Positions 11,480-19,813 of a DNA stretch of 35,429 nt are shown here, one piece after another. The stretch's first letter is position 1, and every line of letters begins with the position of its first letter. The notes under the pieces are model-generated. The model saw nothing but the letters and a program-made list of their open reading frames with translations. It ran no database searches and was not told the origin of the DNA. The position numbers were made by a program, and so were the translations under genes. Origin of the DNA: Bacillota bacterium (GTDB lineage Bacteria > Bacillota > Clostridia > Saccharofermentanales > Fastidiosipilaceae); assembly GCA_030057555.1 (NCBI GenBank), contig JASGUU010000002.1, forward strand, positions 1 through 35,429, read 5' to 3'.

Positions 11480-12379
11480 TCAGTCGGAATACTCCGCCTC
11501 GGGATCCGAGTTTGACAGCACCACGAGCGAGGGAATGCGGTAGCCGAAGTCCGCCATCACCTGGGGATCCTGAAAGCGGCCATTGCCGGAAGGCCCGAGC
11601 GGAACCCTGAAGGCGGCATCATGGTTGGTGGCTGTTTTGACCAGCGGATGGCGGATTTCAAACTGCAGTTCGGCATAGCCGCTTTGCGGATCGACGCTGC
11701 AGCTGCCCAGTCTGGCGCCCGCCGCCACGCGCTGGCCGCGGAAGACCTGAAGCGTGGACAGGCCAATATAGACGGAATAGAGGGTATTGACGCGGTCGGC
11801 ATCGTAGTGAAAGGCCGGCGCCAGAGAGAAGCGATACTGTCCCTCAATCGGCTGGCGGTAGACCCTGTCGGCTGCAGGACCGCTGCCGGGGTCGAAGGAG
11901 CCATACTCGTTTGTGATGATCTCGGCACCGGAAACGGTCAGCGCGGAGCCGCTCGCGGCCGGGATTACGAAGTCGCCGACATGGCGCAGGACCACGTAGT
12001 GGAGCCGGCGGCTTCCCGTGCGCTCGAGCTTCCCCGTATAGGCAACCTCACCTGCGGCAATGGCATAAACCGGAGCCTGATTCAGCGTCGTGACCCAGAT
12101 CTCGCCGGGTACGGAACCCACCCCTCCGCCCAGCTCTCCGGAAATCTGACTGCCCGGAACCGAGCCCATCGCCTGGGCCAGAGTCCAGCCTGCCACCGTG
12201 CGACCGAAGGGATCGCGCAGGAGGTTCTGACGCGGATCCTGCTGCTCCGCCGCACCCGGAACAGGCAGGGACAAGCCGCAGGCACCGAGCAAAAGAGTCA
12301 GAAAGAGAACCAGACCTGCCCGGAGAAGTCCGTTCAGGGTAGCGGGGTGGCGCTCATTCGCCGGACGGCTGGACTTCAC
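11480..12379 (-). CDS. Lipoprotein with a degenerate M23/LytM-type domain
   Basis: Starting at GTG 12379 (GGGGAGGAGG twelve bases upstream) the product is about 299 residues. An ATG at 12421 is possible but lacks a ribosome binding site and overlaps ftsB further. A hydrophobic signal ends in LLLGAC, a lipobox with C34 as the lipidated residue. Residues about 95-265 follow the M23 beta pattern (VYAIAAGEV, YVVLRH, VYIGLSTLQVFRGQRVAAGARLG). The final catalytic motif HLHFE is replaced by ELQFE (237-241), and I see no upstream metal-binding H-x3-D. It is therefore probably a non-catalytic LytM-like protein, perhaps an amidase activator or a cell-wall scaffold. It overlaps the end of ftsB by 26 bp, so a division role is plausible but inferred. 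Confidence 0.65.
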   Translation of the reverse strand: MKSSRPANERHPATLNGLLRAGLVLFLTLLLGACGLSLPVPGAAEQQDPRQNLLRDPFGRTVAGWTLAQAMGSVPGSQISGELGGGVGSVPGEIWVTTLNQAPVYAIAAGEVAYTGKLERTGSRRLHYVVLRHVGDFVIPAASGSALTVSGAEIITNEYGSFDPGSGPAADRVYRQPIEGQYRFSLAPAFHYDADRVNTLYSVYIGLSTLQVFRGQRVAAGARLGSCSVDPQSGYAELQFEIRHPLVKTATNHDAAFRVPLGPSGNGRFQDPQVMADFGYRIPSLVVLSNSDPEAEYSD

Positions 12380-12761
12380 TAGCTTCTGCCGCCTCCTCCC
12401 CGTCAACGAAAAGGATCTCATTGGGCCGGATCATGCCGAGCTGGCCGCGGGCATATTTCTCGACAAAGGCATCGGAGTCGAGCTCATCCAGCTGACGCTC
12501 GATGTCCGCCGCCTGACTGCGGGCGCGTTCGAGCTGTGCGCTCAGCACGCGACCGCGCTCAACGAGGTGCTCGCGTTCGGAACTCATGGTATGAAGCAGA
12601 AAAGCGGCAGCGAGCACGACGATCAGCACCACAGCCAGCGCCAGCACCCGCGGTACGCGGCGCAGGCGCATTCTGAGCGTGTCCAGCCAGCCACTCTCCG
12701 CCTGCGATCTGGCGGAATGGGCCGGATGATGTGTCATCTCATGTCGGGCTCTCTGTGACAT
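12354..12761 (-). CDS. ftsB: FtsB/DivIC-family cell-division protein
   Basis: This 135-residue bitopic membrane protein has a short cytoplasmic head, one transmembrane helix (about 38-57), a heptad-rich coiled coil (61-95) and the family tail DAFVEKYARGQLGMIRPNE (97-115). DivIC/FtsB joins FtsL and FtsQ/DivIB to regulate septal peptidoglycan synthesis. The ribosome binding site AAGGAGAGG lies just before the ATG. In many Clostridia divIC lies close to rqcP and mazG, as here, but 1 kb of non-coding DNA intervenes. The acidic tail after residue 118 is not conserved as far as I can judge. Confidence 0.85.
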   Translation of the reverse strand: MSQRARHEMTHHPAHSARSQAESGWLDTLRMRLRRVPRVLALAVVLIVVLAAAFLLHTMSSEREHLVERGRVLSAQLERARSQAADIERQLDELDSDAFVEKYARGQLGMIRPNEILFVDGEEAAEASEVQPSGE

Positions 12762-12794
12762 GCCTCTCCTTCCAGCGATTGGTGATTACTCTCG

Positions 12795-12803
12795 ATTCTA
12801 CCA
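12795..12803 (-). promoter_or_regulatory. Probable extended -10 promoter of ftsB
   Basis: On the minus strand TGG followed directly by TAGAAT (12800-12795) forms an extended -10, about 34 bp before the ftsB start codon. No good -35 is seen. Confidence 0.4.
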
Positions 12804-13143
12804 GTTTCTCCCGGAGCATGGGACCACGCCGGTTTGGCTTTTGACTGAGCGTCTATGGACGCACGCATCGTGTAGCCACCAGGGAGCCGTCTGCCCTTTT
12901 ATAGACGACAGCGATGACATGGAGCAAAGCTGCGCCAAAAAGCAGGTGTGTCTCTGACTGAATTTTCAGGCAGAGAAGCTCATGCGGTCATTCACGGGCA
13001 GGAAATGTGAAAGTTCGTCAATGACCCCAGCTGATGTATGTAACTTCGACAAAATGGGGGTGCACGTCAAGAGTGCCGGGAAGCGGTTGAGCATGCCAGG
13101 AACACGGCTGGCAAGGGAGAAAGGCAGCTGGCGGACTTCTGGT

Positions 13144-13420
13144 GGTCAAAACGAGGAGTTTTCCAAAAAACCATTTGGATTACTCGCTATCCTGACCACA
13201 AAGGGGCCGTTTCTGGTCAAAACGAAGAGTTTTCCAAAAAACCATTTGGATTACCCGCTATCCTGACCACGAAGGGACCATTTCTGGTCAAAACGAAGAG
13301 TTTTCCAAAAAACCATTTGGATTACTCGCCATCTTGACCACAAAGGGGCCGTTTCTGGTCAAAACGAAGAGTTTTCCAAAAAACCATTTGGATTACCCGC
13401 TATCCTGACCACGAAGGGGC
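13144..13420. repeat. Array A: four tandem 71-bp repeats with internal dyad symmetry
   Basis: Units start at 13144, 13215, 13286 and 13357, each beginning GGTCAAAACGA; the first three are exactly 71 bp and the fourth stops after 64. Units are over 90 percent alike by eye. Units 1 and 3 share variants (ATTACTCGC, CAAAGGGGCC), and units 2 and 4 share others (ATTACCCGC, CGAAGGG), so the array may have grown by duplicating a two-unit block. Within each unit, GGTCA (1-5) pairs with TGACC (50-54) and TCCAAA (19-24) with TTTGGA (31-36). In units 1 and 3, GAGT (13-16) also pairs with ACTC (39-42). All pairs share one axis. The period is not a multiple of three, so the array is not coding. Confidence 0.93.
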
Positions 13421-13507
13421 GCGCACTTCGCTGCGCGGCGCGCTGCTTGTCGGGATCTCCTAATCTTACGGCATCAGAGCAACAGAACCTGGATCGCTTC
13501 ACCATCT

Positions 13508-13523
13508 CCTGGCACGTGCCAGG
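13508..13523. repeat. Perfect 16-bp palindrome
   Basis: CCTGGCACGTGCCAGG is self-complementary over its whole length. It could be an operator for a dimeric regulator or a small cruciform. No promoter is evident beside it. Confidence 0.5.
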
Positions 13524-13630
13524 GCGTGTCTGTCACCTCGCCGCTCGCTAAGCTATCGCATACCATTCATATTCCGGCAGTTTACGAGATTGATCGCTAC
13601 GCTGGCCACGGGAGAAGGGATCTTCTATAT

Positions 13631-13644
13631 GCCTGCATGCAGGC
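13631..13644. repeat. Perfect 14-bp palindrome
   Basis: GCCTGCATGCAGGC is self-complementary and lies 107 bp after the 16-bp palindrome. Function unknown. Confidence 0.45.
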
Positions 13645-13807
13645 TACGCTAAAATTTCGGTGTTTCAGGTGTTTGAGAAAGGGCGCGGAAAAAGGTTTTA
13701 CGCATCCCGACAAATATGACGTGACGTGCGCCGGTTTGGCGGCTCACCCTGGCCGGGTACGGGCACCGCGATTCCGGCCATCCGGACCCCGGCGCAGCCA
13801 CGGTTGT

Positions 13808-14077
13808 CTACTGCTCTCCGACCCGTCGCTGCGTACCCTCGAGGACTTCATAAAGCAGGGCGGCCTCCTCACGGCGGACATTCTCGCGCACGTCGAGGAC
13901 ACGCACGCGCGAGGAACCACTGCCGAAGGAGATTTCGATGATGTCTCCGACCGCAACGTCGGCGGAGGGCTTCGCGATGCGGCCGTTCAGGGCTACGCGG
14001 CCATTCTCGCAGACCTCGTTGGCCACGGTCCGGCGCTTGATGATGCGCGCGACTTTCAGGAATTTATCGAGTCTCAT
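13808..14077 (-). CDS. rqcP: RqcP-type S4-domain RNA-binding protein (YabO/Hsp15 family)
   Basis: The 89-residue product is almost entirely an S4 domain: MRLDKFLKVARIIKRRTVANE, then NGRVALNGR and the A-VGDIIEI strand. In Bacillota this protein works with RqcH on stalled 50S subunits, stabilising peptidyl-tRNA during C-terminal alanine tailing. It overlaps mazG by 4 bp (ATGA), so the two are translated together. The size and the position beside mazG and near divIC fit the family. Confidence 0.9.
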   Translation of the reverse strand: MRLDKFLKVARIIKRRTVANEVCENGRVALNGRIAKPSADVAVGDIIEISFGSGSSRVRVLDVRENVRREEAALLYEVLEGTQRRVGEQ

Positions 14078-14790
14078 GCATTCTCCTCGCTACTTCTCTC
14101 AACATAGCCGCGGTTCGCCGCGCTCAGGGCTTCCTCGGCATCGATACCGCAGCGGTTGCCGAGGGCGGCGAGCGCAAACAGCAGTTCGCCGTAAGCTGTC
14201 TCAAGCTCCGGCGACGCCGTCGCGCCAGGACCGGGCTGCAGGTCGTTGACAGCTGCGAGACCACGGCCGACAGCGAGCCAGGGATCCTCGTCCATGCCGG
14301 CCCGCCGCTCAAGCTTCTGCGCCCGCAGCAGGGCAGGCAGGGCCAGCGCCACTCCGCGCAGCCGATCGGCGGTGCTCTCGTAGCCTTTTTCCTTCTGCTT
14401 GTTACGCTCCCAGAGATCCAGCACTTCACCGGTCTCCTCCACGTGATCCTGGCCGAAGACATGGGAGTGACGGTATATCAGTTTCTTCACGATTCCGTCG
14501 ATGACATCGCCGCGGTCGAAGAGCCCCGCCTCCCGGGCGAGTTCGGTCTGAAAGGCCACCTGCAGCAGCAGGTCACCGAGCTCTTCGCAGAGGGCTTTCA
14601 CATCGCCGCGGTCGATCGCATCGGCCACCTCGTAGGCCTCCTCGATGACATGTGTACGCAAAGTCGCGGATGTCTGCTCACGGTCCCAGGGACAGCCGTC
14701 CGGCGCGCGCAGCAGAGCTACAATCCGCTCCAGGTCCTCAAAGGCATCGTAGCGGGGGCGCTTCAGAAATGTCTCGCGGTCAAAATCCAT
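14074..14790 (-). CDS. mazG: MazG nucleoside triphosphate pyrophosphohydrolase
   Basis: The 238-residue enzyme hydrolyses NTPs or dNTPs to monophosphates and is viewed as a house-cleaning enzyme. Signatures are the CPWDREQT lead-in (33-40), the first metal-binding motif EEAYE (50-54) and the second, EELGD (69-73), with YRHSHVFG further on. The C-terminal MazG repeat is shorter and weaker than in E. coli MazG (263 residues). It starts immediately after the stop of the small upstream gene and overlaps rqcP downstream, forming a tight three-gene operon. Confidence 0.9.
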   Translation of the reverse strand: MDFDRETFLKRPRYDAFEDLERIVALLRAPDGCPWDREQTSATLRTHVIEEAYEVADAIDRGDVKALCEELGDLLLQVAFQTELAREAGLFDRGDVIDGIVKKLIYRHSHVFGQDHVEETGEVLDLWERNKQKEKGYESTADRLRGVALALPALLRAQKLERRAGMDEDPWLAVGRGLAAVNDLQPGPGATASPELETAYGELLFALAALGNRCGIDAEEALSAANRGYVERSSEENA

Positions 14791-19431: not shown

Positions 19432-19813
19432 GCAACTGCGTTGTCGCTCATGTGCAGTTTTTCAAGCTTCCGCACGTTTTCGCTGCGGAACCTTGAAATT
19501 TCGCTCAGAATGCCCCGGAAATGTGCAGTTTTTCAAGCTTCCGCTCACTTTCGCTGCGGAACCTCGAAATTTTGCACAGAATGGCCCGGAAATGTGCAGT
19601 TTTTCAAGCTTCCGCACGTTTTCGTTGCGGAACCTCGAGTTTTTGCTCAGAGGAGACAAGCACACTCCCACTCATGAGAGTAAAGAACCATGGCCTGCTT
19701 ATTCAATACCCTGTGTATGTGCTGGATCAATTCATTCGTGTGAGTATTTCTACACGGAAGAGGCGCAGACACTGCGAATGGTTGATAAACAGTACTTTTG
19801 ACAGCGTATCACG
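19432..19813. other. Convergent intergenic region holding array B
   Basis: This 382-bp stretch separates the 3' ends of the Gfo/Idh gene and priA. Its first 220 bp are array B; the rest is AT-richer and shows no gene. Open frames exist in all three plus-strand frames because the 71-bp unit shifts frame at each copy. Confidence 0.6.
19450..19662. repeat. Array B: three tandem 71-bp repeats with internal dyad symmetry
   Basis: Units start at 19450, 19521 and 19592, each with ATGTGCAGTTTTTCAAGC; the first two are exactly 71 bp and the third diverges after about 62. In each unit TTCAAG (12-17) pairs with CTTGAA (43-48) and TTCCGC (19-24) with GCGGAA (36-41) on one axis, with a single C-C mismatch between the stems and an 11-base loop. 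Outer bases GC (5-6) and TG (2-3) also pair. In unit 2, T4 gains a pairing partner at A56, while the CTCGAA variant costs one pair in the lower stem. The sequence is unrelated to array A. Its position just after the Gfo/Idh stop would also allow a role in ending or stabilising that transcript. Confidence 0.92.

Follow-up and report, generated by a model that had tools for sequence, protein, structure and literature searches.

The array of four 71-bp units in the stretch of DNA analysed here (35,429 nucleotides, called the window) forms the interior of a larger element bounded by inverted repeats, a setting absent from an earlier reading made from the letters alone (the sequence-only reading). 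This element is very probably a non-autonomous DNA transposon (MITE) of BOX-like build, and the array is its internal hairpin module of variable number. The MITE reading follows from the inverted ends, the many intergenic copies, two sites that are empty in a sister species, and some short target duplications. In kind it is an ordinary genome parasite, dispersed in its genome and without a transposase of its own; its repeat module is unusual and structure-preserving. A stand-alone array, or a single replication or segregation site, is ruled out because dozens of copies share the same flanks and ends. Of the three functions that the sequence-only reading had offered, the RNA hairpins gain support, and a single replication/segregation element does not fit dozens of scattered copies. 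The features of the window copy are collected in Table 1.

Table 1. Features at and around the array, in window coordinates.
Feature	Position	Strand	Basis
DivIC/FtsB-like septum formation gene adjoining the insertion	12354..12761	(-)	Pfam PF04977
Direct repeat CGCCGGTTTGGC, left copy	12828..12839	(.)	seen in sequence
Fragment of second repeated element (type 2)	12844..13057	(+)	flank comparison, end alignment
Left arm, opens with left terminal inverted repeat (core match 13060-13081, 1 mismatch)	13058..13143	(+)	flank comparison, end alignment, core-pattern search
Array A, four 71-bp units	13144..13420	(-), better-folding strand	TRF, pairing, folding against shuffles
Right arm, closes with right terminal inverted repeat (core match 13705-13726, 3 mismatches here)	13421..13726	(+)	flank comparison, end alignment, core-pattern search
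Direct repeat CGCCGGTTTGGC, right copy	13729..13740	(.)	seen in sequence
S4-domain protein gene adjoining the insertion	13808..14077	(-)	Pfam PF01479
mazG, upstream of the S4-domain gene	14074-14790		Pfam PF03819

Structure of the array

In the window, TRF detected a repeat of period 71 with 3.9 copies, 92% matches and a score of 493 at 13143-13420. Each unit of array A consists of a 54-nt imperfect hairpin and a 17-nt linker. The array folds far better than its shuffles on both strands (z of -6.5 on the plus and -7.3 on the minus strand; 0 of 200 shuffles equal it on either), which together with the TRF result bears out the description of four 71-bp units that are each a long imperfect palindrome. 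The paired positions had been said to sum to 55. In this register 75.6% of the cells at 24 position pairs are Watson-Crick, against 14-34% at 26 other sums from 45 to 71, counted over the distinct units of the genome of the window (G000, 106 units) and of a sister species (G001, 79 units), and the claim holds. G001 is a draft that agrees at every base over 3,992 bp with the deposited MAG JASGUW01, 'Bacillota bacterium MAG87_KBP'. The GAGT/ACTC pairing is present in units 1 and 3 of the window array, as the sequence-only reading had it. In units 2 and 4 it is broken by a single A.C mismatch, which is G.U when read on the minus strand.

The 94-aa frame that spans the array had no Pfam match up to E = 1, in agreement with the view that no protein frame is kept, and an Rfam scan of the window gave 0 matches at the gathering score. 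A CRISPR array is ruled out: the units are contiguous, with a conserved linker and no unique spacers. The array is unlikely to be an assembly artefact, as the element recurs with differing unit numbers at dozens of unrelated places in two drafts, with the caveat that in draft genomes exact unit counts may be wrong and several element copies lie at contig ends.

Architecture and distribution of the element

The window element spans about 13058-13726. Its left arm is followed by (71-bp unit)n and then by a right arm of ~300 bp, and its two ends form an inverted repeat. Similarity of the flanks to the window extends past the array, and in most copies it has sharp limits near 13058 and 13723. Alignment of the copies at these limits showed that the element ends are mutually inverted repeats, GGGTGCACGTCAnnnnTGTCGGGA; the left end reads GGGTGCACGTCA...TGTCGGGA and the right end is its reverse complement. 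The element has the terminal inverted repeats expected of a MITE. Their core (up to 3 mismatches) was found at 76 places in G000, against 1 for a reversed-pattern control. The sequence-only reading had proposed to search for the unit elsewhere, and this search was productive: the array gave 76 matches in its own genome, and further copies were found in the sister species.

Thirty-nine further array loci were fetched from G000 (40 with the window) and 13 from G001. No array overlapped a called gene among the 40 in G000 (window included) and the 13 in G001, with genes and neighbour orientations called by a crude codon score written for this analysis. The neighbouring genes are convergent at 8, divergent at 11 and tandem at 14 of the 40 G000 sites (7 undetermined); the corresponding numbers for the 13 G001 sites are 4, 3 and 2 (4 undetermined). 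With neighbouring genes in all possible orientations, the element is unlikely to have a fixed regulatory role for them; an effect on read-through transcripts is possible.

Two end modules surround a variable number of tandem inner modules, which is a BOX-type layout. The end cores are spaced from 358 bp (about two units) to 739 bp in plausible G000 pairs, and 836 bp in G001. In 59 G000 arrays the unit number is 1 (10 arrays, of which three, L212, L215 and L218, are partial hits and two, L224 and L225, lie at contig ends), 2 (12), 3 (20), 4 (10), 5 (4), 6 (2) or 7 (1). In the 13 G001 arrays it ranges from 4 to 14, best hits only. All seven contig-end TIR loci (L219-L225) match the same element.

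Of 58 genomes searched, two gave hits to the array sequence: G000 and G001, the one other member of its genus in the set. The end pattern (up to 2 mismatches) was multi-copy solely in G000 and G001 among the 58 relatives, with single matches in three others. In 60 kb each of G002 and G006 no arrays like A were seen. As far as these searches show, the element family is recent or confined to the genus, because array and multi-copy ends were found in the same two of the 58 genomes.

The window copy as a composite

In the window the array element adjoins a type-2 fragment that lacks both of its outer ends, and the same type-2 piece adjoins the array element at 7 other fetched loci. The ends of the type-2 element are ACACGTCCGGCACCCT on the left and a near reverse complement on the right. 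A TIR-bounded type-2 element with the ACACGTCCGGCACCCT ends is seen at L097:1286-2589, and several copies of type 2 contain the array element, inserted at site CAAAATGG. The 97-aa frame of type 2, the sole frame tested, had no Pfam match above cut-off. The whole window insert is flanked by the 12-bp direct repeat CGCCGGTTTGGC, possibly a target duplication, a recombination junction or a deletion scar. No promoter-like or terminator-like sites were found in 12750-13830.

Empty sites and target duplications

In G001 the aligned flanks of the S4-domain and DivIC/FtsB-like genes are separated by 21 bp; in the window the distance is 994 bp. The site orthologous to L085 measures 25 bp in G001 and 671 bp in G000; the element is missing from it, and so is the 10-bp repeat that flanks the L085 copy in G000. 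The copies are thus dispersed and there are sites without the element in a relative, as expected of a MITE, at two empty sites. Neither of them matches to the base: outside the repeats, a further ~110 bp of flank at the window site and ~70 bp at L085 are without a G001 counterpart, and the pre-insertion target was not seen.

Of 31 end pairs, 5 had a perfect 8-bp target duplication, where mismatched pairs gave an expectation of 1.07, and 11 had a duplication with at most 1 mismatch, where 2.27 were expected. The count includes only pairs 250-1300 bp apart, with the shortest taken, and it keeps at least 6 pairs that look mispaired by length or ends (L074, L091, L094, L100, L103, L141). Target-site duplication, another mark of MITEs, is therefore seen here, though three of the five perfect cases are one nested site (L069, L097 and L104) and independent cases are few. 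By eye a duplication of 8 to 10 bp is possible, as G and C letters at the ends leave the length ambiguous. In the window copy the right end is changed and no clean duplication of the target is seen.

Search for a mobilising transposase

The element would be moved in trans, by a transposase encoded elsewhere that recognises its ends, perhaps one of ISL3 type. The transposase searches in G000 covered the Y1_Tnp and ISL3 families. A search of the draft genome (completeness 96%) found no Y1_Tnp, with 5 of 14 control genomes positive, and no ISL3 transposase was found in the same draft. By eye, no facing end pair spaced for a transposase gene was present in the end list of G000 or in those of the 58 relatives. 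The seven contig-end TIR loci (L219-L225) contain no clear transposase frame, and there is no recognised coding frame inside the element where it was looked at.

The look of the ends makes an ISL3-type partner possible. They begin GGGT and carry TGnnGG at the spacing found in the ISL3-like element ISKox3, for which the duplication is 8 bp long. However, the likeness is loose, and when ISL3 records from plasmids were scanned the end-finder gave ends with a perfect duplication in one of six (ISKox3) and no ends with duplication in the other five. In G001 the C-terminus of a truncated ISL3 transposase occurs twice (L232 and L234), each time at a contig edge and with a common 3' end. That 3' end has only a short core in common with the element ends. 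ISL3 as a proven partner was rejected: G000 has no such transposase and G001 has only the two C-terminal pieces at contig edges.

Maintenance of the hairpin

The palindrome is maintained: paired positions vary in concert, and most mismatches are G.U when read on one strand. Between G000 and G001 units 14 consensus columns differ, several of them as partners (10-45, 14-41), and some G001 units have a different inner stem that is changed on both arms. Compensatory changes were found at pairs 10-45, 14-41, 20-35, 21-34 and 22-33, both between and within species. Copies that kept the sequence and lost the pairing are the opposite of what was seen, as the sister-genome copies change sequence and keep pairing, and in this respect the sequence-only reading stands.

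Unit hits with more than 6 gap positions (50 of 238) were dropped before the register, growth and wobble counts. The covariation set comprised 76 of the 188 kept units (75 distinct), one per G000 array and up to three per G001 array. Pairing in this set was 86.8% of cells, against 83.3% when shuffled and 31-55% when slid. Judged by shuffles that do not keep relatedness among units, double-change cells (91 against 57.3) and the covariation score (0.204 against 0.145) were each matched by 0 of 500 shuffles, and further pair types (26 against 22.3) by 8 of 500. The number of pairs with change on both sides (9 against 7.4; 71 of 500 shuffles as high) was not unusual.

With G.U allowed, pairing in G000 is 87.0% on the minus and 76.3% on the plus strand, and in G001 85.3% and 79.4%. 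Mismatch columns lean towards G.U on the minus strand (A.C on the plus) by 6 to 1 in G000 and by 7 to 1 with one tie in G001. Because the mismatches are mostly G.U on the minus strand, this suggests that one strand folds, the window's minus strand, either as RNA or as single-stranded DNA. The bias is no more than suggestive, because the two species share ancestry and the few columns are not independent. The hairpin would be kept because it folds in that form, and its likeliest effect would be a structured stretch in read-through transcripts that alters their stability, as discussed for BOX.

Within arrays the mean identity of units is 0.889 at lag 1 and 0.878 at lag 2 in G000, and 0.893 and 0.882 in G001. 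The nearest neighbour of a unit lies inside its own array for 27 of 100 units in G000 (2.3 expected) and 47 of 81 in G001 (7.0 expected). Local duplication of units inside each copy fits these data, because nearest relatives in the own array exceed chance and likeness falls with distance. Units would multiply in place, within the element, through slippage or unequal recombination. The alternation of variants (1 like 3, 2 like 4) is seen in the window array at few sites and is not general, as neighbours are most alike. Growth by copying a two-unit block was not confirmed as a general rule, with identity highest at lag 1.

Alternative explanations

How the hairpin came to be kept admits several readings. 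The 71-bp units may be selected as working RNA hairpins, for example to protect or process element transcripts, with the mobile ends merely spreading them. This is a possible explanation, though somewhat doubtful: it would account for the compensatory changes at the five pairs between and within species and for a G.U bias to one strand that is fixed in element orientation, but the better-folding strand has no clear tie to the direction of neighbouring genes (tandem sites 9 same and 5 opposite in G000, 1 and 1 in G001), the independent wobble columns are few and the window is without an Rfam match. A further reading appears improbable, namely a row of selected, transposon-borne RNA hairpins, variable in copy number and with a fold more conserved than the sequence, acting on the element's own mobility or on host transcripts (for example through a host RNA-binding protein). 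Neutral tandem expansion of a palindromic stretch in a dead element is about as tentative as the working-hairpin reading. The range of unit number from 1 to 14 and the drop of similarity with distance from adjacent units, which are most alike, agree with it, and pairing could also return by copying between palindrome arms, without function. Against this, the wobble pairs 7-48, 9-46 and 11-44 persist in 93, 89 and 92 of 106 G000 units, respectively. Arm copying would tend to erase them, and simple arm-to-arm palindrome repair is disfavoured because they persist.

The units could instead be DNA sites for a dimeric protein (a host regulator, nucleoid protein or transposase), bound in a line from one unit to the next. 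In favour of this, GGTCA/TGACC shows little or no variation in either species, and at the unit junction (columns 69-71 and 1-2) the sequence itself is conserved, and not the pairing alone. However, the middle and inner stem vary in both arms with pairing kept, and mismatches that favour G.U on one strand are unexpected for a double-stranded site, so this explanation is unlikely. REP/BIME-type repeats, spread by a RAYT (Y1) transposase, resemble the units in being palindromic, extragenic, repeated and arranged in rows. The unit here is larger than theirs and is set in an element with inverted-repeat ends and target duplications, and the draft contains no RAYT transposase or other Y1_Tnp; a REP/BIME origin is very improbable.

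Comparison with known repeat families

The closest likeness of the MITE described here is to BOX. BOX elements of Streptococcus pneumoniae and S. suis are described as boxA-(boxB)n-boxC, with inverted-repeat ends, mutual insertions and a varying module number, and the predicted fold of boxB as largely independent of the rest of BOX (PMC3049150). Both are small interspersed composite repeats in which end modules surround a variable tandem module that folds mostly alone, with inverted-repeat ends and nested insertions (PMC3049150). The match is one of architecture, taken from the description of boxA, boxB and boxC and not from their sequences (PMC3049150). Unlike BOX, the element here has a 71-bp unit with a 54-nt imperfect hairpin, a right arm of ~300 bp and up to 14 units, and both of the genomes that carry it, 2 of 58, are of one genus.

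Bacterial MITEs are described as having inverted-repeat ends, target duplications, intergenic positions and transcripts that form stem-loops (PMC10969869). The element has the inverted-repeat ends, target duplications and intergenic sites, but differs in holding a long tandem array of variable unit number inside it; neither 'tandem' nor 'internal' occurs in the main text of that review (PMC10969869). No paper naming the element or the sister MAG was found in the open-access literature searched. By architectural comparison with BOX, the element may be classed as a new family of BOX-like MITEs, in which structure-preserving change is well documented. Such a build in an uncultured Bacillota lineage suggests that placing tandem hairpins between transposon ends may be a solution that recurs. 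With its many copies, whose arms co-evolve inside one genus, the family is a natural data set on whether selection acts on such modules as RNA, acts on them as DNA sites, or is absent.

Other repeat arrays

Arrays of a second family (B) with a 71-bp period occur between genes at window 19450-19651 and at 25 further fetched loci (e.g. L111 and L120). The B unit is a palindrome of ~57 nt with a linker of ~14 nt. Families A and B are unlike, yet have the same period. The window B locus has no flank in common with the other fetched loci beyond the array, and these look like bare arrays. At L125 and L126 the B-type hairpin arms lie ~80-87 bp apart, as though the centre of the palindrome had received an insertion. 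Two arrays, at L212:717-933 and L245:14526-14739, have a 60-bp period and a common unit, and only the first adjoins an inverted-repeat end. In the sister MAG a different repeat, often spaced about every 121 bp, occurs in many places and often at contig ends, and the same genome has arrays of 92-205 bp period with B-like letters (L146:8667-8735 and L146:3063-3483 for the two observations together). The genus looks rich in tandem repeat arrays.
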